Positions 5,511-51,625 of a DNA stretch of 63,666 bases are shown here, piece after piece (position 1 is the first letter of the stretch; every line of letters begins with the position of its first letter). Below the pieces are notes generated by a model. The model was not told where the DNA came from, did no database searches, and saw only the letters and a list, made by a program, of their open reading frames with translations. The DNA lies in assembly GCA_031280435.1 (NCBI GenBank), contig JAITGS010000132.1:1-63666 (forward strand), in the 5' to 3' direction. The DNA comes from Tannerellaceae bacterium. GTDB taxonomy: Bacteria > Bacteroidota > Bacteroidia > Bacteroidales > Tannerellaceae. A program made the translations under genes and the position numbers.

Positions 5511-5740
5511 CAAATTTCATTTTGCCTACGGGATTCCGTAGAGCCATCAAAACAGTTTCATTTTGCCTACGGAATTCCGTAGAGGCATCAAAACAATTTC
5601 ATTTTGTCTACGGAATTCCGTTGAGGCATCAACACAATTTCATTTTGCCTACGGGATTCCGTGGAGCCATCAAAACAATTTCGGTTTGTCTACGGGATTC
5701 TCCGGGCATATCAAAACATTTTTGCTTTGTCTATGGAGAT
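5511..5740. repeat. Intergenic 41-bp tandem array 1
   Basis: About six units start at 5511 (short by 4 bp), 5548, 5589, 5630, 5671 and 5712; the internal spacing is exactly 41 bp. Each unit has CAAAACAATTTCATTTTG followed by a dyad, which in two units is the perfect 16-bp palindrome CTACGGAATTCCGTAG or one mismatch from it. Units differ at several positions and decay at the right end. 41 is not a multiple of 3, so the array does not encode a repeated peptide in one frame. It lies between yhcC and the ZIP gene, both on the minus strand. Confidence 0.93.
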
Positions 5741-5802
5741 GCCTTTGGGGCGGCGCGATGCGGGAGGGGGGCTAAAGGCGGCCGCCTTACAGGCCGAATC
5801 GT

Positions 5803-6600
5803 TTATCCCAGCGCCACGTCGAGCACCATCATCAGCAGAAATCCTCCCATGACCGCCAGGGTGCCCACGTTGCTGTGATCGCCCAGATGCGCTTCGGGTA
5901 TCAGCTCTTCGACCACCACATACATCATGGCTCCGGCGGCGAAGGCCAGCAGCCAGGGCATGTACGGAGCAATCACTCCCGCCAGGGCCACCATCATGAA
6001 GGCCGACAGCGGCTCTACTGCGCCCGACATGCATCCCAGGCCAAAGGATCGCTTTGCGCTCATTCCTTCTTGCCGTAGCGGCAGGGCCACGGCGGCGCCT
6101 TCGGGGAGGTTCTGTATGCCTATGCCGGCGGCCAGAGCGAGTGCGGCTGTGTACTGAGCCGCATCGCCTCCATGCTGAGCTGCCAGCACAAAGGCAAGCC
6201 CCACGGCCATTCCCTCCGGAATGTTATGTATGGTGACGGCCGAGAGCAGCAGGCTGCTGCGCTTCATGCGCGTGGGCAGGCCCTCCACCGTGCCGGACGA
6301 CAGGTGCAGGTGAGGAATCAGGCGGTCGAGGCCGAACAGAAAGAGTACGCCCATGGCAAAGCCGCCGGCAACAGGTATCAATCCGCTTCCGCCGGCGGCC
6401 TGACCCTCCTCTATGGCCGGCGCCAGCAGCCCGAAGGCCGAAGCCGCTATCATAATCCCGGCCGCAAATCCAAGGAAGATGGTTTGAGCCATACGGCTCG
6501 TCTGATTTTTAAAGAAGAAAACCATGGATGCCCCTATGCAGGTCATCACAAAAATAAAGCCGGCGCCTCCGGCTACCATAATCAATTCTTCGGTATTCAT
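5803..6600 (-). CDS. ZIP family metal transporter (ZupT-like)
   Basis: This 265-aa inner-membrane protein has about eight transmembrane helices. It has the two ZIP signature metal-binding motifs, HNIPEG (125-130) in helix 4 and QNLPEG (163-168) in helix 5, and EELIPEAH in a later helix. A His-containing loop (HLHL near 97-100) follows helix 3. The family imports zinc and often other divalent metals. No metal-specific regulator is nearby, so substrate is inferred. The gene stands alone on the minus strand. Confidence 0.93.
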   Translation of the reverse strand: MNTEELIMVAGGAGFIFVMTCIGASMVFFFKNQTSRMAQTIFLGFAAGIMIAASAFGLLAPAIEEGQAAGGSGLIPVAGGFAMGVLFLFGLDRLIPHLHLSSGTVEGLPTRMKRSSLLLSAVTIHNIPEGMAVGLAFVLAAQHGGDAAQYTAALALAAGIGIQNLPEGAAVALPLRQEGMSAKRSFGLGCMSGAVEPLSAFMMVALAGVIAPYMPWLLAFAAGAMMYVVVEELIPEAHLGDHSNVGTLAVMGGFLLMMVLDVALG

Positions 6601-6721
6601 TTTCTCTAAGCTTTATGTTATACATTATATATATGTGTGTACGCCCGGAGCCGTACGCAGGCAAAGTAAGGCCAAAAGATCCGTTCTCGCAAGAACCCAC
6701 GGCCCTGCACCGGGATACAGA

Positions 6722-6910
6722 GGTGTGCAATTGGAATTTGCGCCTGCCCAAATGGGTCATTCCCGCGAAGGCGGGAATCTCCGATCGAAAAACGGTTACG
6801 ATTGTAGTTGTATCATATAAAACAACAAATACAATCGTCCCAGCTCTCGATCGGAGATTCCCGCCTTCGCGGGAATGACCCATTGTTCGAGCGAAAATTC
6901 CTTTTTGACA
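6722..6910 (-). repeat. Nested-palindrome MITE-like element, copy 1
   Basis: A perfect 37-bp inverted repeat (6752-6788 and 6846-6882) encloses a 57-bp centre. Each arm contains its own small palindrome, ATTCCCGCGAAGGCGGGAAT. Outside the arms, the flanks match those of the copies at 26.8 and 28.8 kb but inverted: TTCGAGCG and TTTTTGACA on the right, a degenerate TGCCCAAATGGG on the left. It has no coding capacity. It sits between the ZIP gene and the tagaturonate epimerase gene, which are divergent. The remaining part of the 424-bp gap (6601-7024) holds no gene. Confidence 0.88.
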
Positions 6911-7024
6911 GATTTACTTCGGGCAGGCCGGGAATGGCTTTTTGCGCATCGCCATTCCCATTCGAAACTTATTACTACTTTTAGCCCGAACATAATTTTT
7001 AATCATATCAAAAACAAAACGACC

Positions 7025-8266
7025 ATGTTATTAGGAAAATATTCTTTTGGAACAGGCGACCGCTTTGCGCAGCAGGGCGAGGCGCAGTTGAGAGCCTTGA
7101 TGAAGGCTTCGCAGGAGATAGGTACGGACATTGTGCCGGTGTGGAACAAATCGAACAGGGAGCACCAAATCGTGGGCTCCACCCCGGCGGCCGTGAGGCG
7201 CGAGGCCGAGGATGCGGTGACGGCCCTGGGCTACGGCGGACAGTGGTTCACGGATGCCGACCATATAAACATGTCGAATGTTGATAAGTTTATAGACGAC
7301 TCGGACTTCTTCACCATAGACGTTGCCGACTTCATCGGTAAGCCCGAGGCCGACGATGCCGTGGAGGCCTTCATAGAGCGCAGCCTCAAGGCGGCCGCCG
7401 AGCTGAAGCTTCCGGTGGATGCGAGCGAGGCCAATCTGCGTCGGGTAGCCGCCAATTACCTGTACGCCGTCCGCGAGGCCGGGCGCATCTATCGCCACAT
7501 CGAGGAGCGCAAAGGCCACGGCCGCTTCGTGGCCGAAGTATCCATGGACGAGGCCGCCGCAAGCCAGTCGCCTGCCGATTTCATATTCATACTCCGCGAG
7601 CTGGCTCTTGAGGGCGTTGAGGTGCAAACGATAGCTCCCCGCTTCCACGGCAGCTTTCATAAGGGCGTGGATTACGTTGGCGACGTTGGCGTCTTTGCGA
7701 TCCAGTTCGAGGAGTACATGCAGGCGATCGACCTGGCCGTAGAGCGCTTCGGGCTTCCTCCCAGCCTCAAGCTCAGCATACACTCCGGCAGCGACAAGTT
7801 CTCGCTCTATCCCGTTATCGGCAGCATTTCGAAACGATACGGCCGCGGATTCCACCTCAAGACCGCCGGCACCACATGGCTGGAGGAAGTGATTGGGCTG
7901 GCCATGACGGAGGAGGCCGAGGCCGTCCGCTTGGTTAAGCTCATATACTCGCAGGCCGTTGAGCGCTGCGACGAGCTTTGCCTGCCGTACAGTACGGTTA
8001 TTGACATCAAGCCCGAAGGCCTCCCCACCCCGTCCGAGGTGAATAGCCGGAGCGGACGGCAAATAGCCGCGGCCCTGCGACACATTCCCGGGCATCCGGA
8101 GTATAATCCCGACATGCGACAGCTGGTGCACGTGGCCTACAAAATCGCCGCCGAGAACATGGACGCCTACCTGGCGGCCCTGCATCGCAACGCACTCGCC
8201 GTAGGCCTCGAGGTGGAGGCAAACATATACGACAGACACCTCCGCAGGCTGTTCGACCTGCCCTGA
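7025..8266 (+). CDS. uxaE: Tagaturonate epimerase family protein (UxaE-like)
   Basis: The 413-aa product resembles UxaE, which interconverts D-tagaturonate and D-fructuronate in galacturonate catabolism. Visible family stretches include FTDADHINMSNVDKF (near residue 80), APRFHGSFHKGVDYVGD and KLSIHSGSDKFSLYP. Conserved His and Asp in these probably bind the metal and substrate. The ATG at 7025 is chosen because it starts MLLGKYSFGTGDRF and follows AACAAAACGACC; the frame is open further up through the repeat element. It is cytoplasmic. It is the only uronate gene seen here and fits with pectin side-chain use elsewhere in the window. Confidence 0.85.
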   Translation: MLLGKYSFGTGDRFAQQGEAQLRALMKASQEIGTDIVPVWNKSNREHQIVGSTPAAVRREAEDAVTALGYGGQWFTDADHINMSNVDKFIDDSDFFTIDVADFIGKPEADDAVEAFIERSLKAAAELKLPVDASEANLRRVAANYLYAVREAGRIYRHIEERKGHGRFVAEVSMDEAAASQSPADFIFILRELALEGVEVQTIAPRFHGSFHKGVDYVGDVGVFAIQFEEYMQAIDLAVERFGLPPSLKLSIHSGSDKFSLYPVIGSISKRYGRGFHLKTAGTTWLEEVIGLAMTEEAEAVRLVKLIYSQAVERCDELCLPYSTVIDIKPEGLPTPSEVNSRSGRQIAAALRHIPGHPEYNPDMRQLVHVAYKIAAENMDAYLAALHRNALAVGLEVEANIYDRHLRRLFDLP

Positions 8267-8301
8267 AAACGGCGCGGAGGCAATTTTTATGAACTAATGC
8301 A

Positions 8302-8309
8302 TATCTTTG
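8302..8309 (+). promoter_or_regulatory. -7 promoter element (TATCTTTG) for enolase
   Basis: A perfect Bacteroidota -7 match 50 bp upstream of the enolase ATG. It gives eno its own promoter separate from the epimerase gene. Confidence 0.7.
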
Positions 8310-8340
8310 CGCCGCAGTTAATTCATTAAATAATAATTAA

Positions 8341-9639
<1,299 letters not shown>

Positions 9640-9745
9640 GGACAAAGGGCCGGGCATGCTCCCCGTAGCATAGCTCGGCCCCTAATATGTAATGTTTCCA
9701 AATAATAAGGCCACTTCCTTAACACCTTTGTAAATTTTTGTTTTA

Positions 9746-9777
9746 TTGGGCGTCGGGCATACTGTCCGGCGCTTTGT
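9746..9777 (+). terminator. Possible terminator downstream of eno
   Basis: A GGCGTCGGG ... CCGGCGC stem-loop followed by TTTGTTTT about 105 bp after the enolase stop. The stem is imperfect, so this is moderate evidence only. A GC-rich imperfect hairpin (GGGCCGGGC ... GCTCGGCCC) also lies at about 9648-9680 without a T-run. Confidence 0.5.
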
Positions 9778-9912
9778 TTTATATGCCCCCGCAGGATTGG
9801 CCGTCGGAGCCCGGCTGCCGCATGCCGCTAAAGGCGTCCGGGAGCCGTTCCGCCGGAAGCGATCCTGCCTCGAATAAGAGGGTGGATTCTCCGTTCATAT
9901 AATCCCACCTCA

Positions 9913-10262
9913 ATTCACCACATGATTTTATATGAAAACTGTGTTCAAAGTTTGATTCCGTATATGAATCGAGATAAAACTATATTCAAATTCTGATTCA
10001 CTATATGATTTTATCTGAAAACTATATTCAAATCCTGATTCAGAATATGAATTTATATGAAAACAGTTTTTAAATCTCTATTCACCATATGAATTACTAT
10101 TTAAATATTATACAGGAACCGATTCATATTATGAATTGATATGGCAATATTGTTTCAGCTTGATTCATGTATTGAATTATCTGCAACAAATATTTTTTTA
10201 TTGGATTCAGTATATGAATCAAGACGGATACATTTCTGCGGACTGATTCACCTTATGATTTT
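9913..10262. repeat. Intergenic 41-42-bp phased array 2 (ATTCAnnnTATGAAT core)
   Basis: Nine copies of an ATTCA-centred core, often continuing into TATGAATT (an AT dyad), begin at 9913, 9955, 9996, 10038, 10080, 10122, 10163, 10205 and 10246. Steps are 42, 41, 42, 42, 42, 41, 42 and 41 bp. The sequence between cores is well kept only in the first three or four units (TGAAAACTATATTCAAAT) and then drifts, yet the spacing stays the same. The rest of the 776-bp eno-nhaA gap holds no gene. Confidence 0.88.
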
Positions 10263-10380
10263 TGGGAGGCGGAGAGTTTGGGAGGCGGGCATGGGGGTGG
10301 GAATGTGGCAAAGGGGTTTTATGGAAGTAGGAAATTAATAAAACTGCAAGGTCGCTATTGCAAAAGCCGAATCAAGAGAA

Positions 10381-10388
10381 TATCTTTG
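10381..10388 (+). promoter_or_regulatory. -7 promoter element (TATCTTTG) for nhaA
   Basis: A perfect -7 match with a TTG at 10358-10360 about 20 bp upstream serving as the -33 element. It is 28 bp before the nhaA ATG. Confidence 0.75.
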
Positions 10389-10415
10389 TAAAAAAAACAA
10401 AAAGTATATGCCCCC

Positions 10416-11780
10416 ATGAAACAACAGGAAGACAACGGAAAAACATATCTGATAGACAAGTACGTGCAGCCGGTTCATCGCTTTATCAAGCAGGATAAAG
10501 CGAGCGGTATAGTGCTTGGCGGGGCGGTGCTGATTGCGCTGATATGGGCAAATTCTCCGCTGTCACATTCCTATTTCAACATTTTCCAGCACAAGCTCGG
10601 CTTCAGGTTTGACGGACAGTCTCATTTGGAATTCAGCATATACCACTGGATAAACGACGGGCTTATGGCAATATTTTTCTTCGTGGTAGGTTTGGAGCTT
10701 AAGCGCGAGTTTGTGGAAGGCGAGCTTTCGAATGTTCGCACGGCAATATTGCCTATTGCTGCGGCCGTTGGAGGCATGCTGGTGCCGGCCGTGATATATT
10801 ATCTGCTGAACAGAACCGGGGAGGCTGCCAATGGCTGGGGGATACCGATGGCCACGGATATTGCCTTCGCCCTGGGGGTTTTGTACCTGTTCGGCAAGCG
10901 TGTGCCCACGTCCATAAAGATTTTTCTGGCTGCGCTGGCTATTGTGGACGACCTTGGGGCCGTGGTTGTCATCGCCTTTTTTTATACATCTAATATATAT
11001 ATAGGAAATCTGCTCATAGGATTCGCTTTTGTGGCTGTAATGTTTGCGGGCAACATGATTGGAATCAGGAACTTGTTTTTCTATGCGATACTTGGGGTGG
11101 CCGGGGTTTGGGTGGCCTTTGTGACGTCCGGGGTTCATGCCACTATTGCTGCGGTGATAGCGGCATTCACTATTCCTGCCGATGTGCGTATTAATCCGCG
11201 TGTTTATATCAACAGGATGGAGAAGCTGCTGAAGGATCTGAACCTCATTCAGCTGAATGCCCGTAACACGCTTTCGGAGGAACAGGTTCATCTGTTCGGG
11301 GAGATAAAGCAGGGTACGAATGATGCCATCCCGCCTCTTCAGCGGCTGGAGCATGCTTTTTATCCTGTGGCCATGTTCGGAGTGCTGCCTGTTTTTGCGG
11401 TGGCTAATGCCGGTGTGCCGTTCCAGGTGCATGCGGATTTCTGGACGGGCTCGGTTTCGCTGGGTGTGGCCCTCGGATTGTTTGTGGGCAAGCCTCTGGG
11501 GGTGATTGGCACCACCTGGCTGTTGGTGAAGCTGAAGATTGCGAAGTATCCTAAGGGGATGAACTTTCTGCACCTGATGGGTGTGGGGCTTCTTGCCTCC
11601 ATTGGCTTTACGATGTCGATATTTATCACGTCTCTTGCCTTCACGGAGCCTGCTCACTTCCTTCAAGCCAAGCTGGGCATATTCGCGGCGTCGATAGCAG
11701 GTGGAGGTCTGGGCTACCTGGTGCTGAAAAAAGCGATAGGCAAGGAGCCCTCCGAAGTAGCGGCGAAAGCCAAAGTTTGA
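10416..11780 (+). CDS. nhaA: Na+/H+ antiporter NhaA
   Basis: This 454-aa inner-membrane protein has the NhaA arrangement of about 12 transmembrane helices. The adjacent ion-binding aspartates are D178-D179 in LAIVDDLGAVVVI, and the unwound-helix motif GIPMATDIAFALGVLYLFG is at 142-160. It exchanges Na+ for protons, giving sodium and pH homeostasis. It is longer than the E. coli protein, mainly through a cytoplasmic loop near residues 270-310. It has its own promoter and stands alone. Confidence 0.96.
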   Translation: MKQQEDNGKTYLIDKYVQPVHRFIKQDKASGIVLGGAVLIALIWANSPLSHSYFNIFQHKLGFRFDGQSHLEFSIYHWINDGLMAIFFFVVGLELKREFVEGELSNVRTAILPIAAAVGGMLVPAVIYYLLNRTGEAANGWGIPMATDIAFALGVLYLFGKRVPTSIKIFLAALAIVDDLGAVVVIAFFYTSNIYIGNLLIGFAFVAVMFAGNMIGIRNLFFYAILGVAGVWVAFVTSGVHATIAAVIAAFTIPADVRINPRVYINRMEKLLKDLNLIQLNARNTLSEEQVHLFGEIKQGTNDAIPPLQRLEHAFYPVAMFGVLPVFAVANAGVPFQVHADFWTGSVSLGVALGLFVGKPLGVIGTTWLLVKLKIAKYPKGMNFLHLMGVGLLASIGFTMSIFITSLAFTEPAHFLQAKLGIFAASIAGGGLGYLVLKKAIGKEPSEVAAKAKV

Positions 11781-11907
11781 GGAGGTAAATAAGGCTGCGG
11801 GAGGTGGTGAATTGCATTTTGTCCATGACATCCCGGCTTTTCATAGCTAAAAAAACTAAAAACGCGATGGTACGAAGCATAGAGTAAGTAAAGAATGAAA
11901 AAATATA

Positions 11908-11915
11908 TATATTTG
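11908..11915 (+). promoter_or_regulatory. -7 promoter element (TATATTTG) for the first tonB gene
   Basis: A -7 match in an AT-rich stretch 34 bp before the TonB start at 11949. Confidence 0.6.
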
Positions 11916-11948
11916 CAATGTAAGAAACACCTATAAATTTAAAAAAGT

Positions 11949-12644: not shown

Positions 12645-12704
12645 ACAGAACAAAAAAATCAGCATGTCTTTTCAGAATTAGTAACTCTATAAAAAAATAA
12701 AATT

Positions 12705-13400: not shown

Positions 13401-13440
13401 ACAGCAAGGATTAAAAAAAGAAAGTAGTCCGACCCTAATT

Positions 13441-13500: not shown

Positions 13501-13529
13501 TTCTTTGATTCGGAAAATAAAACTTAAGC

Positions 13530-18180: not shown

Positions 18181-18400
18181 GACTGCTCCACTTAGTGGAA
18201 AGCGCGATCGGCATGCCGGGGGAGCTTTCCACTAAGTGGAAAGTGCGATCGACTTGCTCGATCATGCTTTCAACAATGTTGGCGGCGTGATCGACTTGCT
18301 CGATCATGCTTTCAACATTGTTGGCGGCGTGATCGACTTGCCGGGCGAGCTTTCAACATTGTTGGTGACATGCCGAACTTGGGCAGGGAGGTTGGCGGCA
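18181..18400. repeat. Intergenic 41-42-bp array 3
   Basis: Copies of GATCGACTTG-type cores start at 18206, 18247, 18289, 18331 and (degenerate) about 18372; the steps are 41, 42, 42 and 41 bp. Between cores lies a dyad: CTTTCCACTAAGTGGAAAG in the first units, replaced by CTTTCAACATTGTTGG in later ones. So the dyad has changed sequence but kept symmetry and position. The remaining part of the 655-bp gap (17882-18536) holds a terminator, a near-palindrome (ACTCTCATAATTGTGAGT) near 18134 and the next promoter. Confidence 0.85.
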
Positions 18401-23292: not shown

Positions 23293-24501
23293 ATGAGAAC
23301 AGCCATAAGGATAATTCCTTTTCTTCCCTTATTTATTCTTGGAACTAATTGCAAAACGGATAAAGCTCCGGATGCATATTTACAGCAGGTTTTGACTAAT
23401 CTTGAAAGCATAAAATCTGCCGTTTATCACGAGCAGAGAGAGGTGTGGCAGCCGGGAGATACGGCCGCCGCAAATATTTTTTGCCTCATCGTTAATGAAT
23501 ACGATAATCCGGCCGATACATGCATAGGAGCCGCCTGTGTTACGTTCGATTGCGAGGATTCCACAAGAATGGAATTCGGTTATGACGGCAACATCCGGGC
23601 TGTGATTTACCACGATAAAAACGGGATAATCTTGGACGATTTTACTACAAGAACTTCGCCCTTCAGACCCGTTTCACCTCCATTCTTTAATTACACCGAA
23701 AGTATCATTAAATATATACTCACAACACAGGACAGTATTGATTGGAAGATGACGGATATGAAGGATCATTATTATCTGAAACTGACTATTAATGAGGACA
23801 GGCAGGTCGAATTTTTCGGTAAGGCTTATCACATGCCCGACAATCCGTATATCTATGGAAATACAACTTCCGTATACGAATTATGGATCTCAAAATCGGA
23901 CGATTTGCCTCATAAGGTACGCCGGGAAATGGCGCACAGTATATCCGTTAACTCCCGGTCTAAAGCTGAGTTCAATACGCTGTCGATAGCCGATTTCAAC
24001 ATGTTCGCTTACTTGCCCGCCGACTATGAAATAAGGAATTACGGCGACGCCGGCAAGCGCAAAGCAGAGCCTCAGCTTACAGGCGAAAAGGCCCCTGATT
24101 GGGTTCTGACCGATATGGATGAAAAGAGCGTATCGCTGGCCGATTTTCAGGGGAAAGCTATGCTGATTCAATTCACCGGCATAGGTTGCGGCCCTTGTAT
24201 GGCTTCCATTCCTTTTCTAAAGAAATTAAAGGACAAATACAGCGCTGATGATTTTGAAGTTATAGCAATTGAAACCTGGATAAGAAGAGCGGCTTCGCTC
24301 CGGAATTATTCCAATAAACACGATTTGAATTACAGCATGCTGAACGGCACCGACAAGCTTATTGATGATTACAAAGCCGGCCGGGCCGTACCTGTATTCT
24401 TCATCATAGATAAGCAGCATAATATCCGAAAAGTAATAAACGGATACAGTGAAAAAACGACGGATGAGGAAATCCTGAAAGCCCTTAGCGAGCTCTTATA
24501 A
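23293..24501 (+). CDS. Thioredoxin-like envelope protein (TlpA family)
   Basis: The 402-aa product has an N-terminal hydrophobic signal ending in LGTNC (possible lipidation at C20), a long beta-rich middle part (about 40-250) with no recognised name, and a C-terminal TlpA thioredoxin domain from about 264 (TGEKAPDWVLTDMDEKSVSL) with CGPC at 299-302. It probably acts in the periplasm on disulfides. The middle part resembles outer-membrane lipoprotein-sorting (LolA-like) folds in style, but I cannot confirm this. A small inverted-repeat element begins directly after its stop codon. Confidence 0.88.
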   Translation: MRTAIRIIPFLPLFILGTNCKTDKAPDAYLQQVLTNLESIKSAVYHEQREVWQPGDTAAANIFCLIVNEYDNPADTCIGAACVTFDCEDSTRMEFGYDGNIRAVIYHDKNGIILDDFTTRTSPFRPVSPPFFNYTESIIKYILTTQDSIDWKMTDMKDHYYLKLTINEDRQVEFFGKAYHMPDNPYIYGNTTSVYELWISKSDDLPHKVRREMAHSISVNSRSKAEFNTLSIADFNMFAYLPADYEIRNYGDAGKRKAEPQLTGEKAPDWVLTDMDEKSVSLADFQGKAMLIQFTGIGCGPCMASIPFLKKLKDKYSADDFEVIAIETWIRRAASLRNYSNKHDLNYSMLNGTDKLIDDYKAGRAVPVFFIIDKQHNIRKVINGYSEKTTDEEILKALSELL

Positions 24502-24623
24502 GGGAACTTCTAATAATTAGATTTTTCAAGGCTTGTGACGGCGGCAAAAGCGGAGTGTACTTGGGTACATGAGCATTTTGCCGCCGTCGCATAACGCAGA
24601 AAAAGCAATTATTCGAAGTTCCC
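24502..24623. repeat. Small inverted-repeat element, family B, copy 1
   Basis: The 122-bp element has ends GGGAACTTC and GAAGTTCCC. Inside is a long inner hairpin: GCGACGGCGGCAAAA-like arm paired with TTTTGCCGCCGTCGC, and GTGTAC/GTACAT at the tip. It starts at the base after the stop codon of the thioredoxin-like gene. It matches the element at 36291-36414 closely. It has no coding capacity and could serve as a bidirectional terminator. The following 130 bp up to 24756 hold nothing I recognise. Confidence 0.88.
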
Positions 24624-24756
24624 ATAATCAAGACGGAGTAGTCGCGGAGGCATTGCACGGGGCTAAAGTCTTCAGGCGGCCCTTGCCGGAGGTTCCCGAT
24701 TGCAGCGATTAGGGCCGGCGGTGCATCATGATTAATAAGATTAATATTTATAAAAG

Positions 24757-26692: not shown

Positions 26693-26750
26693 CGAGGGTG
26701 CGCAAAAAGGTCAGGAGCCTGTCAATACGGGTCATGGAGCTGCGTCAAAA

Positions 26751-26930
26751 GCCCTCCACGCTCGAACAATGGGTCATTCCCGCGAAGGCGGGAATCTCCT
26801 TGCAAGAAGACGGGACGATTGCATAATCCTTAGAGACAAAGGGCTTATACAATCGTCCCAGCTATCGTTAGGGAGATTCCCGCCTTCGCGGGAATGACCT
26901 ATTTTTCAGTCGAAAAATCCTTTTCTCGAA
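26751..26930 (+). repeat. Nested-palindrome MITE-like element, copy 2
   Basis: Arms of 31 bp (26769-26799 and 26872-26902, one mismatch) have the inner palindrome ATTCCCGCGAAGGCGGGAAT. It is preceded by GTCAAAAGCCCTCCACGCTCGAACA, which is shared (in pieces) with copy 3. The centre differs from copy 1 except for ACGATTG and ACAATCGTCCCAGCT. Non-coding. Confidence 0.85.
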
Positions 26931-27042: not shown

Positions 27043-27185
27043 CTCCACAATCGCTAAAGCTTGCGAACACGTTCCCACGCTTTCTCCACAATCGCTAAAG
27101 CTTGCGAACGCGTTCCCACGCTTTCTCCACAATCGCTAAAGCTTGCGAACACGTTCGCGACAAATCTCCATCGTGGAGGTCGTCA
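27043..27185. repeat. Intergenic 41-bp tandem array 4
   Basis: Units start at 27043, 27084, 27125 and 27166, exactly 41 bp apart. The first three are nearly the same: CTCCACAATCGCTAAAGC then TTGCGAACACGTTCCCACGC. The fourth is truncated (CTCCATCGTGGAG). The third unit contains the near-palindrome GCGAACACGTTCGC. It lies within the 587-bp gap before the carboxylesterase gene, which also holds a MITE-like element and a terminator. Confidence 0.92.
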
Positions 27186-28791: not shown

Positions 28792-28818
28792 ATAATTACG
28801 GATGCCGGACAGCCGGAG

Positions 28819-29006
28819 TGTCAAAAGCCCTTCACGCTCGAACAATGGGTCATTCCCGCGAAGGCGGGAATCTCCGATCGAGAGCTGGGACGTTTGGATT
28901 TATATTATGTGAAGCAAAAACATCCAATCGTCCCGTTTTTCGATCGGAGATTCCCGCCTTCGCGGGAATGACCTGTTTTGGCAGGCTGAATTACCTTTTG
29001 ACGCAC
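28819..29006 (+). repeat. Nested-palindrome MITE-like element, copy 3 (most complete)
   Basis: Outer ends are TGTCAAAAG on the left and CTTTTGACGCA on the right. Inner arms are 37 bp on the left (28845-28881) and 34 bp on the right (28940-28973), with the ATTCCCGCGAAGGCGGGAAT palindrome in each. The right flank holds GGCAGGCTGAATTACCTTTTGAC (28980-29002, given here in two overlapping halves GGCAGGCTGAATTA and ATTACCTTTTGAC). It fills the gap between the esterase and GH51 genes, which converge. Confidence 0.88.
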
Positions 29007-34034: not shown

Positions 34035-34036
34035 GG

Positions 34037-34079
34037 TGTCAAAAGCTTTGGGCAGGCTGAATTAGCTTTTGACCTCTCA
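34037..34079. repeat. 43-bp inverted repeat, left arm
   Basis: A perfect inverted copy lies at 34663-34705. The arm includes TGTCAAAAGC and GGCAGGCTGAATTAG, the terminal motif also seen in the MITE-like elements at 29.0 and 48.6 kb. Confidence 0.93.
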
Positions 34080-34083
34080 CTGT

Positions 34084-34668
34084 GATTTATCGGTGGGCCC
34101 AAATCTTTTTCCGGCCTCAACTGAGTTTATCGGTGGGGCCAAATCTTTTTCCGGGCTCAACCGAGTTTATCGGTGGGGCCAAATCTTTTTCCGGGCTCAA
34201 GTGAGTTTATCGGTGGGCCCAAATCTTTTTCCGGGCTCAACCGAGTTTATCGGTGGGCCCAAAAAAATGATTTGGAGCCACCGATAAACTAGATTGAGGC
34301 AAAAAGGGCCTTTTTGGGGCAATTGAGGCTTATCGCCGACGAAAAAAAACGGTTTTGAGAGGAAGCAGGTCTCTCATTTGGCCAAAAAAAAATATTTGGC
34401 GACAATATGGCAGCCCGTTTTGCCTCAAAAAGATTTTTTGAGGACAATGTGGCATATCATTTCTTCCAAAAAAATGATTTTACCTCAAGTGAGTTTATCG
34501 GTGGCTCCAAATCGTTTTTTTGGCCCCACCGATAAACTCACTTGAGGCGAAAAAAAGTTGTGGGCTCACCGATAAACTCACTTGAGCCCCCAAAAAGTTT
34601 TGGCCCCACCGATAAACTCACTTGAGGCGGAAAAAAGTTTTGGGCTCACCGATAAACTCACTTGAGAG
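34084..34668. repeat. Intergenic 40-bp tandem array 5, two opposed halves
   Basis: Left half: TTTATCGGTGGGCCCAAATC units at a 40-bp step (about 34084, 34123, 34163, 34203, 34243). Right half: the inverted core CCGATAAACTCAC at 34529, 34569, 34609 and 34649, exactly 40 bp apart. A middle part (34280-34490) has scattered single cores and A/T-rich runs such as CCAAAAAAA. The halves face each other and are bounded by 43-bp inverted and 73-bp direct repeats. The whole 983-bp gap (33907-34889) contains no gene; it lies between convergent genes. Confidence 0.9.
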
Positions 34669-34705
34669 GTCAAAAGCTAATTCAGCCTGCCCAAAGCTTT
34701 TGACA
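34663..34705. repeat. 43-bp inverted repeat, right arm
   Basis: The perfect inverted match of 34037-34079. Confidence 0.93.
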
Positions 34706-34737
34706 CATACAAAATCACAGGCCCTATGGGCGGGAAT

Positions 34738-36281: not shown

Positions 36282-36290
36282 TATTATATA

Positions 36291-36414
36291 TGAGAACTTC
36301 TAATAATTAGCTTTTTCAAGGCTTGCGAGGGAGGCAAATGCGGAGTGTACTTTAGTACATGAGCATTTTGCCGACCGAGCATAACGCAGAAAAAGCAATT
36401 AGTAGGAGTTCTCA
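36291..36414. repeat. Small inverted-repeat element, family B, copy 2
   Basis: The 124-bp element has ends TGAGAACTTCTAATAATTAG and an imperfect inverted match at the right (ATTAGTAGGAGTTCTCA), plus the inner hairpin around GTGTACTTTAGTACAT. It ends 4 bp from the proC stop codon and starts 9 bp upstream of the fucosidase start. So it fills the whole gap between the two minus-strand genes. Confidence 0.88.
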
Positions 36415-36418
36415 GGGA

Positions 36419-43061: not shown

Positions 43062-43088
43062 GCCAATCCCACCGGCTATACATATTAT

Positions 43089-43136: not shown

Positions 43137-43165
43137 AGTTCCGGGCGCAATTCCGGGAGGCAAAT

Positions 43166-43395
43166 GCAGGTCTGCTTTTCCTTCGGAAAAAAAATGGAGC
43201 TTCTGCAGGTCTGCATTTCCTTGCGGAAAAAAAATTGGAGCTTCTGCAGGTCTGTATTTCCTTGCGGAAAAAAATTTGGCGCTTCTGCAGGTCTGCATTT
43301 CCTTGCGGAAAAAAAATCGGAGCTTCTGCAGGTCTGTATTTCCTTGCGGAAAAAAATTTGGCGCTTCTGCAGGTCTGCTTTTCCTGGCGGAAAGC
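43166..43395. repeat. Intergenic 41-bp tandem array 6
   Basis: GCAGGTCTG starts at 43166, 43205, 43246, 43287, 43328 and 43369: one 39-bp step and then four exact 41-bp steps. Each unit continues to a TTTCCTTGCGGAAA dyad and an A-run. Two alternating versions of the tail are seen (TTGGAGCTT and TTTGGCGCTT), so the higher-order unit may be 82 bp. It lies between the transglycosylase gene and a lipoprotein gene. Confidence 0.92.
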
Positions 43396-43500: not shown

Positions 43501-43530
43501 CCCGCATAGCAAACAAAAACATACAGCATC

Positions 43531-44043: not shown

Positions 44044-44082
44044 CAAACCGGGCTACTCTAAGCTTCAAACATTACGTAAGAG

Positions 44083-46077: not shown

Positions 46078-46685
46078 TAACCTTCACCACCTGGCTCGAC
46101 TATCTCGGCACCTTCGCCTTCGCCATAAGCGGCATACGCCTCGCATCAGCCAAGCGCTTCGACTGGTTCGGCGCCTACGTCGTAGGCATAGTAACCGCAG
46201 TCGGAGGCGGTACCCTTCGCGACATACTGCTCGGCGCTACACCCTTCTGGATGCAGCAGCCCTCCTACCTCATCGTATCGGGCCTTGCCCTAATCTTCGT
46301 CATCATCCTGCGGAAGTACGTCATCCGACTGAACAACACCTTCTTCATCTTCGACGCAATAGGGCTCGGCCTCTTCGTAGTAGTCGGCATAGTGAAGACG
46401 CTCGATTACAGCTTCCCCATCTGGGTTGCAATAGCAATGGGAACGATAACGGGCTCCTTCGGCGGCATAATGCGCGACATACTCATCAACGAAGTCCCGC
46501 TCATCTTCCGCAAAGAAATATACGCCATAGCCTGCCTCGCAGGCGGCCTGATATACTGGGCATGCATCTCCCTCCATCTTCCGCCCGTAATATCCCAGGT
46601 AATCACAGCCGTATCCATCTCCGCAATACGCATCCTCTCCGTCAAGTACCAGATAAGCCTGCCTGCCCTGCGAGGAGAAAGCTAA
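46074..46685 (+). CDS. TRIC-type (UPF0126/YadS) membrane protein
   Basis: The 203-aa product has about seven transmembrane helices and two UPF0126 repeats, each with a GG(T/I)xRD motif (VGGGTLRDILLG and FGGIMRDILIN). Bacterial TRIC proteins form trimeric cation (K+) channels. The start at 46074 overlaps the GH127 stop (ATGA), which supports it over the longer in-frame reading through the GH127 end. The pairing of a hydrolase with this channel has no obvious reason. Confidence 0.93.
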   Translation: MITFTTWLDYLGTFAFAISGIRLASAKRFDWFGAYVVGIVTAVGGGTLRDILLGATPFWMQQPSYLIVSGLALIFVIILRKYVIRLNNTFFIFDAIGLGLFVVVGIVKTLDYSFPIWVAIAMGTITGSFGGIMRDILINEVPLIFRKEIYAIACLAGGLIYWACISLHLPPVISQVITAVSISAIRILSVKYQISLPALRGES

Positions 46686-46711
46686 GCACAGTCGCTAACC
46701 CACAACACCGT

Positions 46712-46748
46712 AAACGGTCGCCACAACCTCCATTGGCGACCGTTTTCA
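46712..46748 (+). terminator. Terminator after the TRIC gene
   Basis: An 11-bp perfect stem (AAACGGTCGCC with GGCGACCGTTT, 46712-46722 and 46735-46745) is followed by a short T stretch. The rest of the 376-bp gap to 47061 is AT-rich, with a C/A-rich stretch and the promoter of the next gene, and holds no gene. Confidence 0.75.
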
Positions 46749-47016
46749 TCTCCCCAAATCCCATCTATACATTATTATATATATACATATAATAATATAG
46801 CATCCCACACAATAAGCAGCCCCACACAATACCCCCAGGCACAAACAGCAAAAGCACAGAATCACAGGCCTGCGACAAAGCCGCAACAACAGCAGCATAT
46901 CCCGTAAAATCAAATCAAACCGCCACCGTTAGCAACTTGTTGAAAAAAGCAAGAAAAACCAAGCCCGTTCACCACAAAAACCGTGGCAGGCATACATAAG
47001 ATTCGAAACAAATTCA

Positions 47017-47024
47017 TAGCTTTG
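47017..47024 (+). promoter_or_regulatory. -7 promoter element (TAGCTTTG)
   Basis: A -7 match 37 bp upstream of the isomerase gene at 47062. Confidence 0.6.
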
Positions 47025-47061
47025 CGCATCTTGTTTAATCAATAAAATCATCATATCAGAA

Positions 47062-48054
47062 ATGGCACGATTAGTAACCCTCTACACATTGCAATGGGGA
47101 GACCTCCCCTTAGAAACCGTCTGCACGAAAGCAAAAGAGTTCGGATACGACGGCCTCGAGCTCGGACTCCCCAATCACGTTGACGTCCGACAGACAGATC
47201 CCGGCTATTACGCAAACATCCTCAAGCTGCTCAACAAGCACGGACTCCAGTTACGAACCATCTCGACCCACCTTATCGGGCAAGCCGTATGCGACAACAT
47301 CGACTTCCGCCACAAGTCCATACTCCCCGACTACATCTGGGGCGACGGCGATCCCGAAGGCGTTCGCAGCCGCGCAGCCGAAGAGCTCATACGCACAGCC
47401 CACGCCGCCAAAGCACTCGGCGCCGACACCGTCGTAGGATTCACAGGCAGCTCAATATGGCACTACCTCTATTCATTCCCGCCCGTCAGCAGCGAAATAA
47501 TAGAAGAAGGATACAAAGACTTTGCAAAGCGATTCATACCCATACTCGACGAATACGCAAAGCTCGGCGTACGGTATGCACTCGAAGTACACCCCACCGA
47601 AATAGCCTTCGACACCATTACAGCCCAGCGCGCACTCGAAGCCCTCGGCCACCATCCCGCCTTCGGATTCAACTACGACCCCAGCCACTTCGGCTACCAG
47701 GGAGTAGACTACGTCGACTTCATCCACCGCTTTGCAGACCGCATCTTCCACGTACACATGAAAGACGTGTACTGGAGCGCAAGCCCAAAGCCCGCAGGAG
47801 TATTCGGAGGCTACGTCACCTTCGGCGACCATCGCCGCTACTGGAACTTCCGCAGCCTCGGACACGGTTGCATCAACTTCGAAGAAATAATCAGAGCGCT
47901 CAACGCCATCCGCTATACCGGCCCACTCTCCATCGAATGGGAAGACAGCGCCATGGACCGCGAAGCAGGCGCGCGCGAATCCTGTGAATTTACAAAGCGC
48001 ATCGACTTTCAGCCGTCAGCCCATGCCTTTGACGCCGTGTTTGAAAAGAAATAG
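47062..48054 (+). CDS. Sugar phosphate isomerase/epimerase (xylose isomerase-like TIM barrel)
   Basis: The 330-aa product is an AP endonuclease 2/xylose isomerase-like TIM barrel with the likely metal ligands in ALEVHPTE (E), [10 protein letters not shown] (D, H), [10 protein letters not shown] (H) and LSIEWEDS (E). Such enzymes isomerise or epimerise free sugars or inositol derivatives in the cytoplasm. The exact substrate is unknown; there is no signal peptide. It is a single gene with its own promoter and a strong terminator 36 bp downstream. Confidence 0.92.
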
Positions 48055-48090
48055 AACACCAAGACCTTTGTAAGTTGTAGTAATTAGTTA

Positions 48091-48126
48091 AGAAGCGTGG
48101 AATCCTTATACCACGCTTCTTTTTTT
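48091..48126 (+). terminator. Terminator after the sugar isomerase gene
   Basis: AGAAGCGTGG (48091-48100) pairs perfectly with CCACGCTTCT (48111-48120), then six T residues. Confidence 0.92.
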
Positions 48127-48170
48127 ATGCATAGCACCTCAAACTTTTTTTGAACACTATTTTTTTGCAT

Positions 48171-48533
48171 TTGCGCACGCTGCGCAAGTTTGTCGGGATT
48201 TGTCGGGGAACTTGCGCGCGCTGCGCAAGTTTGTCGGGATTTGTCGGGGAACTTGCGCGCGCTGCGCAAGTTTGTCGGGATTTGTCGGGGAACTTGCGCG
48301 CGCTGCGCAAGTCTGTCGGGATTTGTCGGGGAACTTGCGCACGCTGCGCAAGTCTGTCGGGATTTGTCGGCAAACTTGCGCACGCTGCGCAAGTCTGTCG
48401 GGATTTGCTGTGGAACTTGCGCGCGCTGCGCAAGTCTGTCGGGATTTGTCGGGGAACTTGCGCGCGCCGCGCAAGTCTGTCGGGATTTGTCGGCAAACTT
48501 GCGCGCGCCGCGCAAGTCTGTCGGGATTTTCTG
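48171..48533. repeat. Intergenic 41-bp tandem array 7 (nine units)
   Basis: CAAGT cores at 48185, 48226, 48267, 48308, 48349, 48390, 48431, 48472 and 48513: eight consecutive steps of exactly 41 bp. The unit has CTTGCGCGCGCTGCGCAAG (a near-palindrome) and TGTCGGGATTTGTCGGG. Variants are zoned: TTTGTCGG in units 1-3, TCTGTCGG in 4-9, CCGCGC only in 8-9. It lies beyond a terminator, between convergent genes. The full 616-bp gap (48055-48670) holds the terminator, this array and a deleted MITE-like copy. Confidence 0.95.
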
Positions 48534-48542
48534 TGGAGGGAG

Positions 48543-48631
48543 TGTTCAAACAACATTTTACGCTCGAACAAAGGTCATTCCCGCCTTCGTTGGAATGACC
48601 TGTTTGGGCAGGCTGAATTACCTTTTGACAC
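48543..48631 (+). repeat. Nested-palindrome MITE-like element, copy 4 (internal deletion)
   Basis: It keeps CGCTCGAACAAAGGTCATTC on the left and CGTTGGAATGACC plus GGCAGGCTGAATTACC on the right, but the centre and half of each arm are gone, leaving a single short palindrome. Confidence 0.8.
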
Positions 48632-48670
48632 ATTCGGCCCTCCTAACCCGATTGGGGTTCTTTTGAAAAC

Positions 48671-51031
48671 TTATTTTGATTTTTTGACGAGGCGGCAATC
48701 ATAAATATTGGATACTCGCGTATTCTCGCCGGCTTTGAATGTCAAGCGAATTTTATCCTTTCCTTTCGTTAATTCTTCCGGAATATCCAGGGTGTATTCA
48801 ATAAAGCCGTCTTTGTTCTCAATCAGAGGGACTGTTGTTGTCCAGTTCCCGACGATCAGATCAAATGTATATTTCTTTGAGTCGCCGCCATAATAGGTCA
48901 GTATCAGTTGTGCAGGCTCGTCGTAGCCGCATGCCATATCAAATTCAAACCATCCGTTTTCGTAGGCCATCCGATATTTTCTGAGATAGCCTTCCCCTAT
49001 GCGTGTGTTTTCGCCATCCAGATTGTGATTACGTTCCGGTTGCATTTCTCCGAGCTCTATGAAGTCAAGCGTACGCAGGTTAAGTTTTGCAAGTCGCTCC
49101 ATTTCTGCCTTACGTTTATCTTCGGCAATTTTCCATTCTCCCGGAGAGTATACATCCCAGTAAACGCTTTGATATTGGTCGTATACTTTATAAAACGGTA
49201 TCATGAATGTGTTAGCGGGGGCTTCCTGAAATACGGTTTGGAACTTAAGCGGCTTTTCCGATACAAGTTTGATATAGTTCGTCATACTTTTTTCTTCTGA
49301 AACAAATACGGGAATATCCCCTTGCTTTCGTTCTCCGACTCCGAATACGCCGGCCAGCAAACTGGGGCCGTAGAAGACTGCGCGCCGGTCAGGATTATCC
49401 GGCATTGAAACCGTATACAGGGACATCGGAAAATCGATCTCAATATAATCTCCCTTTTTCCATCTACGGTTTATGGAAATAAAAGAACCCGGGGTTGTGG
49501 TTATTTTTTGCTTTGTCCCGTTCACTTTAACCGTCGCGCCCGAAGTTGCCCATGCCGGATAGCGAAAATTTATTTTCATCGTTTGCAAAGGGCTTTTTTC
49601 CAATCGTATGTTGATTTTGCCTCCTTCCGGATAATCGGTTTCCATCTTTATGGTCATATCCTTTTCATGCCAGCTAAGAACAGACGGGATATATAAATTA
49701 ATATTCAGTTCGTCATTTTCGGGAGAATGACTGTATATAGCGCCGCCATATTTCGAATGATTTTCAAAGCCGGTCCCCATGCAGCATGTGAAATTATTCG
49801 TTTTGTTGCCGAACGCTTTTTTCGTTCCCATCCCTAACGACAGGAAGTAGCAAACTCCTCCCTCAACGGGGTGTTGCGAGGCCAGAATATGATTGAACAG
49901 AGCACGTTCGTAATAGTCAAGATATGAAGGATCTCCGCTCCATTCATAGAGATATTGCGTCAGTTTAAGCATATTATATGTGTTGCAGGTTTCGCATGTA
50001 TTGGTTCCCAAACGATCGCTGAGCTTATCCGGCGTCGAGAGGTATTCGCCCATACTGTTCCCTCCGTTGGCATAAGAATGATGGTGAACGAGAGTGTTCC
50101 ATGAGAATTCGGCGATTTTGTAATCCCTTGCGTTTCCGGTGAGTTCATATTGACGGGCGCTGCCGATCAGTTTTGGTATTTGTGTATTAGAATGAAGTCC
50201 TTGCAATGCATCAACGCCTTCCGCCAGCTTATCCTGTAATTTTTTATGATAAAAAGAATAGGATGCTTTCAGGTATTTTTTTTCACCCGTAAGTGCATAA
50301 ACCTGAGCAAATGCTTCGTTCATTCCGCCATATTCGCAATCAAGCATTAATTGCATCTGTTCATCCGTCAGGCCGGAGATCACGTCAGCCAAATAATCCG
50401 ACAGATCGGTAAGCACGGTTTTTGCTTTCAGGTTTCCGGTCAGAAGATAGGCATCGTTCAAGCCCATCATTGTTTTATGCTCATTATACCAGGGTACCCA
50501 GATGCCATTCAGATCAAAGCCTTTAGAACGTATGATTCCCTTTTTTACTTCTTTAAAAACCTTATCTCCTCCTGGCATACCTCCAATGAAACCGTTTACA
50601 AAATTGATTCGGCAGGAATCCAGTTCGTCTACTATATAATCCACTCTTTCTTTGAAGCGTTCATCGCCGGTTGCGGCATAATGTTGTGACGCGGCCGAAA
50701 GATAATGTCCGATCGTGTGGCCTGCTATTCCCATGGCTTCCCAGCCTCTGTAAGGTTCCGCTTTAGGCACTAAGCCTGCATTTTTACGAAAGTTGGATAA
50801 CAAACTGTCCGGATTGAGTTCCAGCATCCATTCTGCATTCAAATCCATGGCGTGTTTGAAAGGGCTGTCGAGCAGGCGTACATTTTTTACTCCAAAATAC
50901 TTAGTTTTAGCAGGAATTACATTCTGTACTTTATGGAAAATAAGATCGTTACATTTTTCACAGGCTGAGCTTACAGCGATGGCACCTATTAATAATAACG
51001 AGGTCAGCGCGATTTTTTTTCTTTGTTTCAT
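48671..51031 (-). CDS. GH146 beta-L-arabinofuranosidase
   Basis: The 786-aa product has a signal peptide (LLLIGAIAVSSAC; C24 may be lipidated) and a DUF1680-type catalytic barrel followed by beta domains and a C-terminal DUF4986/jelly-roll-like part. CETC (346-349) and NFTCCMGTGFENH (C416, C417) match the zinc-cysteine site of GH127/GH146; the CxxGTGxENH form is that of GH146. It removes beta-L-arabinofuranose. The start at 51031 (MKQRKK) gives the signal peptide; the longer reading lacks it. It is the first enzyme of the arabinoside locus, on the opposite strand to SusC. Confidence 0.94.
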   Translation of the reverse strand: MKQRKKIALTSLLLIGAIAVSSACEKCNDLIFHKVQNVIPAKTKYFGVKNVRLLDSPFKHAMDLNAEWMLELNPDSLLSNFRKNAGLVPKAEPYRGWEAMGIAGHTIGHYLSAASQHYAATGDERFKERVDYIVDELDSCRINFVNGFIGGMPGGDKVFKEVKKGIIRSKGFDLNGIWVPWYNEHKTMMGLNDAYLLTGNLKAKTVLTDLSDYLADVISGLTDEQMQLMLDCEYGGMNEAFAQVYALTGEKKYLKASYSFYHKKLQDKLAEGVDALQGLHSNTQIPKLIGSARQYELTGNARDYKIAEFSWNTLVHHHSYANGGNSMGEYLSTPDKLSDRLGTNTCETCNTYNMLKLTQYLYEWSGDPSYLDYYERALFNHILASQHPVEGGVCYFLSLGMGTKKAFGNKTNNFTCCMGTGFENHSKYGGAIYSHSPENDELNINLYIPSVLSWHEKDMTIKMETDYPEGGKINIRLEKSPLQTMKINFRYPAWATSGATVKVNGTKQKITTTPGSFISINRRWKKGDYIEIDFPMSLYTVSMPDNPDRRAVFYGPSLLAGVFGVGERKQGDIPVFVSEEKSMTNYIKLVSEKPLKFQTVFQEAPANTFMIPFYKVYDQYQSVYWDVYSPGEWKIAEDKRKAEMERLAKLNLRTLDFIELGEMQPERNHNLDGENTRIGEGYLRKYRMAYENGWFEFDMACGYDEPAQLILTYYGGDSKKYTFDLIVGNWTTTVPLIENKDGFIEYTLDIPEELTKGKDKIRLTFKAGENTRVSNIYDCRLVKKSK

Positions 51032-51061
51032 GTTTTTGGGATACTTGTTGTTTTTTTCGAA

Positions 51062-51069
51062 CAAAAATA
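51062..51069 (-). promoter_or_regulatory. -7 promoter element (TATTTTTG) for GH146
   Basis: A minus-strand -7 match 30 bp upstream of the GH146 start at 51031. Confidence 0.6.
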
Positions 51070-51343
51070 GGTCAATACCCGGTTTCGGAATAGAACAAAC
51101 ATCTATTTGTATAAAAATATAGTCTACAAAGCCCCCTCTATTTAGGATGATCATCAGGGCAAACCTTTAAAGAAACGAACCGGCTTTGCATGCAAAAAAA
51201 TCTTTGTTGGGTATATACAAGCTCAGGCTAAGCTTTTGTATCTCTGCTACTGTACACCGGCAAGACGTTCTAACTTGCTTATAATATCCGGCTGCGCGCA
51301 GTAAAACAAGAGATTAAGCTATTCCCACAGCCTTTGCGGGTGC

Positions 51344-51625
51344 ACCCTACATGATTTTGGGGGCACCCGCAACGATTTTGGACATGTCAAGAAGGATTTT
51401 GGGGACACCCGCAACGGCTTTGGGGGTTCCCAAAATGATTATGGGAGCACCCGCGAGCCATCGGGAACCCCCGCAATGATTTTGGGAGCACCCGCGACGA
51501 TTGCGGGAACCCCCGCAATGATTTTGGGAACCCCCACGAGCCATCGGGAACCCCCGCAATGATTTTGGGAACCCCCGCGATCATTCCCGGAACCCCCGCG
51601 ATCATTCCCGGAACCATCGATCCGG
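51344..51625. repeat. Intergenic array 8, 20-21-bp half-period
   Basis: About 14 copies of GGAACCCCCGCAATGATTTTG-like units, read as ACCCGC plus GATTTTGGG in halves, have steps of 20-21 bp (one 18). Positions of the GATTTT-type core: 51353, 51374, 51395, 51416, 51437, 51457, 51478, 51499, 51520, 51540, 51561, 51579, 51600. Two steps make 41-42 bp. Unit versions with GCCATCGGG recur. It lies between GH146 and the HTCS gene. The rest of the 753-bp gap (51032-51784) has the GH146 promoter and no gene. Confidence 0.88.

Follow-up and report, generated by a model that had tools for sequence, protein, structure and literature searches.

The 63,666-nucleotide contig JAITGS010000132.1 of a Tannerellaceae bacterium (assembly GCA_031280435.1), the whole of which is called the window here, carries intergenic arrays of tandem repeats whose units mostly look unlike from one family of arrays to the next and yet share one period, about 41 bp, corresponding to four helical turns, or half of it. 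Across the window's own genome and its closest sampled relative we observed a sharp peak at this period, dyads above the level of shuffled arrays, a second dyad axis in the 41-bp units and two-sided changes at the main axis; the arms were more conserved than the spacers and centres, the spacing was kept in diverged arrays, and the arrays lay between genes and turned over between species. These data suggest that sequence counts for less than spacing and symmetry do. Our preferred reading, held tentatively, is that the arrays are rows of helically phased dyads bound by a dimeric protein, with helical phase as the putative reason for the spacing. The initial annotation of this DNA had proposed a helical-phase constraint on eight of the arrays; its observation was confirmed, and its interpretation is partly supported.

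Periods and units of the arrays

Tandem repeats were called with Tandem Repeats Finder (TRF), arrays were counted at a score of at least 50, and genes were called with a codon-usage script of this analysis. The own genome (G000), a 3.06-Mb draft of 143 contigs and 83% completeness in which the window is contig 115, was sampled with the window and 20 further stretches (362,711 bases; 299,045 bases without the window), ten of which were chosen for array-family membership. The closest relative sampled (G009, genome 60% complete) contributed 278,325 bases in 28 stretches that were selected by matches to the window. Draft assemblies may under-represent arrays and misstate their copy number. In the window, TRF agreed with the eight arrays described initially, with a period of 40, 41 or 42 bp in seven and of 21, 41, 62 or 83 bp in the eighth, and called a ninth, inverted array at 34.5 kb; no further row in the window scored 50 or more. 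The arrays are as follows, with positions in the window and no strand assigned to any of them:

5513 to 5745: array with a 41-bp unit, about 5.5 units, dyad CTACGG(A/G)ATTCCGTAG (TRF 5513-5700, period 41; other rows reach 5737)
9900 to 10273: old array of nine dyads ATTCA-N5-TGAAT, longer than its TRF extent (9913-10095, period 42)
18190 to 18368: array with a 42-bp unit and two dyads, GATCGA-CTTGC-TCGATC and CAACAATGTTG (TRF 18247-18365, period 42)
27043 to 27166: array with a 41-bp unit, 2.8 units (TRF 27043-27156, period 41)
34036 to 34706: inverted pair of 40-bp arrays (TRF 34086-34263 and 34518-34666, period 40 in both) inside a larger inverted repeat with the ends GTGTCAAAAG...CTTTTGACAC
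43165 to 43393: array with a 41-bp unit, 5.6 units (TRF 43165-43393, period 41)
48171 to 48539: array with a 41-bp unit, 8.8 units, dyad TTGCGC-N5-GCGCAA (TRF 48171-48529, period 41)
51353 to 51615: array with steps of about 20-22 bp and GGGNNNCCC dyads, which also reads as 41, 62 and 83 bp (TRF 51353-51615, periods 21, 41, 62 and 83)

The own genome, window included, yielded 77 arrays, 39 of which had a period of 40-42 bp, 10 of 21-23 bp, 10 of 80-84 bp, 7 of 121-126 bp and one of 165 bp, leaving 10 elsewhere; without the window, 57 of 68 arrays fell at 20-23, 40-46, 80-92 or 120-138 bp. The 68 arrays of the relative were distributed similarly, with 34 at 40-46 bp, 19 at 60-69, 80-92 or 120-138 bp, 9 at 20-23 bp and 6 elsewhere. 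Unit steps were then counted with shifts searched within 5 bases on either side of each array's best period. The mean step was 41.12 bp (standard deviation 0.64) over 48 own arrays and 41.31 bp (standard deviation 0.68) over 44 arrays of the relative; of the 229 own steps of 39-42 bp, 227 were 40-42 bp (129 of them 41 bp), and all other steps were either 21 bp (16) or 23 bp (17). Periods of 24-38 bp were nearly absent from both genomes, and 18 of 24 short arrays (fewer than 2.6 copies, period 18-79 bp) were already at 21-23 or 40-42 bp. The peak was thus sharp, as initially proposed from the window, and a broad genome-wide spread of assorted periods did not appear.

In 14 other genomes of the genus, mostly thin samples of which three had no array at all, 41 of 81 arrays were at 20-23 bp, 16 at 40-46 bp, 3 at 60-69 or 80-92 bp, 16 below 20 bp and 5 elsewhere; the arrays of G007, a genome of the window's own genus with 41% G+C, were short and mostly of 22 bp. 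Array density was lower in relatives at the family and order level. At 77 loci of other taxa (1.45 Mb), no array had a period of 40-43 bp, one had 44 bp, and a peak of 14 stood at 21 bp, where some arrays may be coding. One set of periods across Bacteroidales families is notable in itself. Separately, two long own arrays have a 23-bp period, with 8 and 13 copies (L115 7053-7236 and L119 6043-6343); they are possibly a different class, and the few own arrays of 20-24 bp are without dyad excess.

By common 14-mers, 101 arrays of the two genomes fell into 37 families, two of which were mixed, and the largest own cluster chained 29 of 78 own arrays. The ten stretches chosen for family membership helped this cluster, so that the units are best called unlike across families, not all unrelated. 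The initial claim of unrelated units accordingly stands for the number of families, but not for the chained arrays or for the families present at five to ten or more places. Unit-to-unit alignment connected still more families, across species too. Families were mostly limited to one species, and the closest relative had an equal period with mostly different units. No 8-mer was present in more than 6 of the 37 families, and none of the 16 most enriched 5-mers and 6-mers in more than 14, five and six being the word lengths at which a conserved tag beside the palindrome was looked for. A sequence motif widespread across families was rejected, since none was found by k-mer sharing.

Sixty-two of 67 own-genome arrays avoided called genes. 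Arrays made up about 4% of the sampled own sequence (15,174 of 362,711 bases), and extrapolation from 67 arrays in 362.7 kb, window included, gives some 500-600 per genome. By spacer length, arrays were held by 4 of 6 spacers above 1000 bp, 19 of 21 of 600-1000 bp, 9 of 14 of 400-600 bp, 2 of 9 of 300-400 bp and 1 of 39 of 100-300 bp. The arrays had initially been described as intergenic, next to gene 3' ends and never between divergent genes. This held in the window, where all nine lay outside called genes, every one touched a gene 3' end and none was between divergent genes, but not beyond it: among 59 own arrays of 40-42 bp (nine in the window), 16 were divergent, 19 tandem and 7 convergent, while 4 overlapped a called open reading frame and 13 lay at a contig end. 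The 42 arrays with two classed neighbours compare with 18 divergent, 49 tandem and 10 convergent spacers among 77 of at least 150 bp, and the apparent 3'-end placement in the window is a small-sample effect.

Dyads, arms and spacing within the arrays

Dyad axes were picked from the sequence and tested against shuffles and control axes, with no outside standard. In the 59 own arrays of 40-42 bp, the best axis scored 5.0 versus 3.2 in column-shuffled arrays. A second axis, weaker than the first, lay half a period away (20.5-21 bp), scored 1.8 versus about 0.5 in shuffles, and did not reuse the inner base pairs of the first; under other filters the half-period bin gave 1.08 versus 0.51 (52 arrays). 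In the 21-23 bp arrays of relatives (n=35), where the unit tends to be one palindrome throughout, the best axis scored 4.34 versus 2.98 in shuffles and 9 of 35 arrays exceeded the 95th percentile; their half-period axis (2.35 versus 0.79) is not independent of the first because a fully palindromic unit yields both, and it serves here solely to indicate that the unit is palindromic throughout. Seven arrays of 20-24 bp from other taxa scored 3.19 versus 2.77. We infer a common building block in which a dyad recurs at 20.5-22 bp; these dyads would all be alike where the period is short and alternate where it is long.

Other descriptions of the unit were tried and rejected. Whole-unit self-complementarity was mostly only modestly above that of shuffled units, so that an origin of units as full-circle palindromes, a sequence joined to its reverse complement by simple fold-back duplication, is unsupported. 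Direct similarity at lag 21 was weak (0.28 versus about 0.24), which speaks against similar half units. The promoter-like motif TAnnTTTG occurred 13 times in 25.1 kb of arrays versus 21 in shuffles.

The arms were the conserved part of the unit. Other axes served as the control because core-based alignment inflates core identity. In 49 arrays, the identity of the arms (2-6 bp from the axis) exceeded that of the spacers by 0.145, where other axes of these arrays gave 0.047 (39 of the 49 lay above the control, Wilcoxon p 2.7e-5), and that of the centres by 0.113, versus -0.008 (p 0.006). Furthermore, related arrays were compared in 325 ordered pairs. At the main axis, 93 of the 396 base pairs that had changed did so on both sides with Watson-Crick pairing kept, versus 28 of 526 at control axes; both sets of figures are optimistic for a reason given below.

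Spacing was kept as the sequence diverged. We allowed shifts of 30-53 bp in 49 arrays with a length of 150 bp or more. Steps from dyad to dyad were 40-42 bp in 245 of 252 cases, and in 63 of 66 where the spacers were less than 70% identical; these arrays had been preselected by a best period of 39-43 bp, so that the count measures regularity within arrays and not the period peak. From general indel rates, neutral insertions and deletions should have blurred such spacing.

The array at 9.9 kb offered the closest view of this divergence. Its nine dyads are centred at 9920, 9962, 10003, 10045, 10087, 10129, 10170, 10212 and 10253, and its counterpart in the relative (L224) has twelve, kept from 21 pattern matches of which the nine dropped ones had 2 to 4 mismatches. 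All 8 steps of the former and all 11 of the latter are 41 or 42 bp. Within species, the spacers were 42% identical in the own array and 50% in the relative's, versus 28-29% at random, and the cores 75% and 72%. Own arms are ATTCA/TGAAT-like; the relative has such arms at its edge units and ATACA/TGTAT inside. In the alignment the changed pair was U-A in 11 units, A-U in 7 and unpaired in 3, which reads as a two-sided change that has spread through the relative's array. The structure was paired in 77% of cells versus 25-37% for slid partners, and the covariation score beat 490 of 500 shuffles.

Comparison of spacers revealed gain and loss of arrays. The relative's spacer matching the 5.5-kb array holds two units with the backbone kept and different arms, and the array at 27.0 kb is missing from the matching spacer of about 136 bp. 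Conversely, the 30.7-kb spacer is without an array in the window but holds one in the relative, and a further array of the relative adjoins its equivalent of the 24.7-kb gene, a match supported from one flank only. By coordinates, seven other species have an 18.2-kb spacer shorter by 440-500 bp, six of the seven being seen in a second comparison, and the matched genes flanking the 51.3-kb array are about 90 bp apart in G007 versus 631 bp in the window.

Protein-bound, mutational and mobile explanations

Taken together, the constraint on arms, the free centres and spacers, the single spacing and the presence in every gene orientation resemble dimer binding to double-stranded DNA on one face. 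An array would then be a row of operator-like dyads in double-stranded DNA, with successive dyads on one face of the helix and with blocks of about 20.5-22 bp, more or less palindromic, that would be all alike in the 21-23 bp arrays and strong and weak by turns in the 40-46 bp arrays. Such rows would most likely serve as scaffolds for the side-by-side binding of one or more dimeric proteins that read symmetry and spacing, while sequence specificity would vary by family. They may grow and shrink by whole units, be homogenised within a locus, be copied into other spacers and drift by changes on both arms, and they might act in local chromosome or transcription architecture. The broadest form of this proposal, which we consider doubtful, would make the arrays cis-elements of a class that extends over the whole genome, with several hundred members per chromosome, and that is set apart by its geometry and nothing else. 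Dyads would occupy one helical face at intervals of two or four turns, and the sequence would be free to change provided that the two arms change in step. A protein or enzyme that reads symmetry and spacing instead of sequence would build and keep the arrays and would organise the chromosome or insulate neighbouring genes, in Tannerellaceae and possibly also in further Bacteroidales. If it is spacing and symmetry that are retained, these genomes would contain a large body of regulatory or architectural DNA, so far unrecognised and hidden from methods based on sequence similarity by the unlikeness of most families.

Several points weigh against protein-bound, phased dyads. No binding protein for the arrays is known and none was found, and dozens of unlike dyads would require many proteins or one sequence-blind protein. 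The dyads initially seen in most units were above shuffles on average, but only 24 of 59 own arrays exceeded the shuffled 95th percentile and 35 did not; dyads of the seven own arrays of 20-24 bp scored 3.13 versus 2.88 in shuffles, which is no excess, and none of the seven exceeded that percentile; and the second axis had no excess of two-sided changes (10 of 204). Relatives also have periods of 22, 23, 44 and 46 bp, a poor fit to one helical repeat. A helical-phase constraint thus agrees with the period peak, the dyads and the spacing kept despite spacer divergence, whereas exactly two or four turns, as first proposed, is too strict unless the helical repeat or the footprint is species-specific. 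Same-family arrays are non-independent and each pair was counted both ways, so that the conservation and paired-change figures are optimistic, and in the 9.9-kb alignment the two-sided-change pairs (379 of 500) and the pair types (482 of 500) did not beat shuffles as the covariation score does. Palindrome-focused recombination could also homogenise arms. Finally, palindrome loops can be reverse-complementary within one stem, CTTGC in the window (18247-18365) and GCAAG in another own array (L111 2038-2308, GATCGA-GCAAG-TCGATC), and such flipped loops make hairpin or cruciform intermediates likely at some stage.

The flipped loops also speak for a mutational origin, which we hold to be a real possibility, if a somewhat less probable one than protein binding. 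Units that fold back as single strands would be hairpin minisatellites without function of their own, prone to slippage and template switching; fold-back copying would keep the arms complementary and flip the loops, and a ruler, be it the size of a hairpin, a polymerase or a repair complex, would set about 21 and 41 nt. Two-sided arm changes, the gain and loss of arrays between the two genomes, the restriction of most families to one species and the presence of the period already in short arrays all agree with this origin. Fold-back copying should not, however, be expected to slow arm substitution, yet the arms surpass spacers and centres in conservation; hairpins of 26-38 nt should work equally well, yet such periods are nearly absent; and the spacing is maintained where the spacers are near random. 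We therefore lean, without confidence, towards helically phased protein-bound arrays over hairpin minisatellites. Were the mutational origin true, some replication or repair process here would make tandem duplications of one fixed length.

Carriage by miniature inverted-repeat transposable elements (MITEs), in which a transposase moves the element and an inner array expands, is improbable as the general explanation. The pair at 34.0-34.7 kb, which reads as a MITE-like composite, suits it well, since it lies in an inverted repeat with recognisable ends and its family occurs on at least nine own contigs besides the window's (at least ten with it). Short flanks are in common at some loci of the 48.2-kb family: of four other contigs, three have 50-60 bp of left flank in common and one matches the window's right flank over about 50 bp. 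In the comparisons of L113 with L122 and of L109 with L112, homology also extends beyond the ends of the arrays. On the other hand, homology ends within about 30 bp of the array edge in several multi-locus families (those at 5.5 kb, at 48.2 kb versus L108, and at 43.2 kb), and the k-mers bring no sequence common to many families. Within 150 bp of 108 arrays of the two genomes, the MITE-end motif GTCAAAAG was found near 10 and CATTCCCGC near 17, with either near 22 and neither near 86, termini other than these two motifs having had no systematic search. A leader or tail common to arrays in general was rejected; one was seen for the 34-kb pair and partly for the 48-kb family. MITEs would, moreover, leave one period across unlike units unexplained.

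The precedent for such carriage is Porphyromonas gingivalis, for which tandem repeats of 41, 23 and 22 nt are recorded along with two MITE types that contain such repeats, PgRS/464 with 41-nt and BrickBuilt with 23-nt repeats (PMC4596501); PMC5771137 is a further paper on this species. These elements resemble the arrays here: they too are tandem repeats between genes, with those three lengths and in a member of the Bacteroidales, and they have predicted stem-loops and vary in copy number. They differ in having one repeat sequence per element type and about 10-20 copies per genome, against dozens of unlike units and an extrapolated 500-600 arrays here, and BrickBuilt has a leader, a tail and terminal repeats like those of insertion sequence IS5, whereas the arrays here are mostly without a recognised leader or tail. 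The arrays thus have the repeat lengths of these elements and lack their single common repeat sequence; a leader and tail with terminal repeats are found at the 34.0-34.7 kb pair and not generally. The statement in the initial annotation that no described system fits needs qualifying in view of the repeat lengths recorded for P. gingivalis (PMC4596501). The Bacteroidales and Bacteroidetes repeat literature, judged by title and the start of the abstract, offered no account of one period common to unlike intergenic repeats, which is weak evidence of absence as subscription papers were largely outside coverage.

Chains of hairpins transcribed at the 3' ends of genes might terminate transcription or shield the transcripts, but such an action in RNA is very unlikely. 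Palindromes with variable centres and the contact of each window array with a gene 3' end agree with it, but 16 of 42 arrays lie between divergent genes. In tandem contexts, 19 G-U cells were on the sense strand versus 14 on the other strand only, no clear strand bias at low power; convergent contexts gave 7 and 1, and divergent ones 5 and 14 by the plus strand, low counts for which no direction is predicted. On these two grounds intrinsic terminators and hairpins of 3' untranslated regions were rejected. The gene upstream of the 27.0-kb array keeps, by eye, a terminator-like hairpin before and outside the array, with the next gene downstream, and the sole Rfam match in the window is a tRNA. 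Repetitive extragenic palindromic (REP) sequences and their mosaic groups (BIMEs) are the relevant known case, and in any one genome REPs belong to a common sequence family, carry a common tag and are associated with a tyrosine transposase (RAYT). The arrays here are like them in being intergenic palindromes of 20-40 bp in tandem groups, although the dyad is not above shuffles in every array, and unlike them in the want of a widely common k-mer and of a Y1 transposase. This transposase (Y1_Tnp, PF01797) had no match in G000 or G009, both incomplete at 83% and 60%, and matches in 6 of 18 genus genomes; RAYT-driven REPs are disfavoured accordingly. Arrays of clustered regularly interspaced short palindromic repeats (CRISPR) were rejected because the whole unit repeats, spacer part included, with spacer identity that is graded, the lowest value being 0.47 among the 22 most diverged arrays listed.

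Plasmid centromeres come closest to the arrays in anatomy. The sopC site of the F plasmid is made of 43-bp iterons. Plasmid centromere iterons are described as longer iterons with short inverted repeats inside, and ParR/parC as tandem repeats on which the protein forms a superhelix with the DNA wrapped on it (PMC5016525). The arrays here likewise consist of tandem phased units, each with a dyad; in sopC and parC, each unit has a dimer-binding site. Such centromeres stand at one or few loci with one sequence, and parC has a partition operon beside it, whereas the arrays here occupy many loci with unlike sequences and ordinary neighbours such as enolase and a Na+/H+ antiporter. A Pfam scan of all 15 called genes that adjoin the window arrays detected no partition family.

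Array families, neighbours and other repeats of the window

Several window arrays recur elsewhere. The family at 5.5 kb is found again in own contig C122 (L122 8102-8388), that at 48.2 kb is on at least five own contigs including the window's, and units related to those at 43.2 kb occur in the own genome (L202, L115) and in the relative (L188). By eye, diverged units of the 18.2-kb array begin at about 18190.

The neighbours of the window arrays also include genes for a radical SAM protein, a ZIP transporter, ExbD, an acyltransferase, a carboxylesterase, a fucosidase, a transglycosylase, a sugar isomerase-like protein, a GH127 protein and a hybrid two-component sensor, and 2 of the 15 adjoining genes are without a Pfam match. 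Two GH127 beta-L-arabinofuranosidase genes (48671-51154 and 60999-63062) flank the hybrid sensor and a SusC/D pair, and this locus is probably a glycan utilisation locus. One glycosidase of the window has its best named matches, at 74-76% identity, in a Tannerellaceae metagenome-assembled genome, Bacteroides sp. 519 and Parabacteroides sp. PH5-46, the nearest records possibly being absent.

The window also carries dispersed palindromic elements. One of about 165 bp, with arms GGTCATTCCCGC/GCGGGAATGACC and a GTCAAAAG-type motif near its ends, lies at 6728-6914, 26741-26907 and 28818-29005 and in part at 48577-48660, and has many copies in the own genome and the relative. Another, of 125-130 bp and with the sequence AACTTCTAATAATTAG..., lies at 24495-24630 and 36285-36415 and recurs in the relative (L193 714-836) at 91-95% identity. 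A 96-bp repeat with GAGACGCGATTAATCGCGTCTC palindromes is present in three copies on another own stretch (L122 736-1050), with BLAST matches in L112 and L113.

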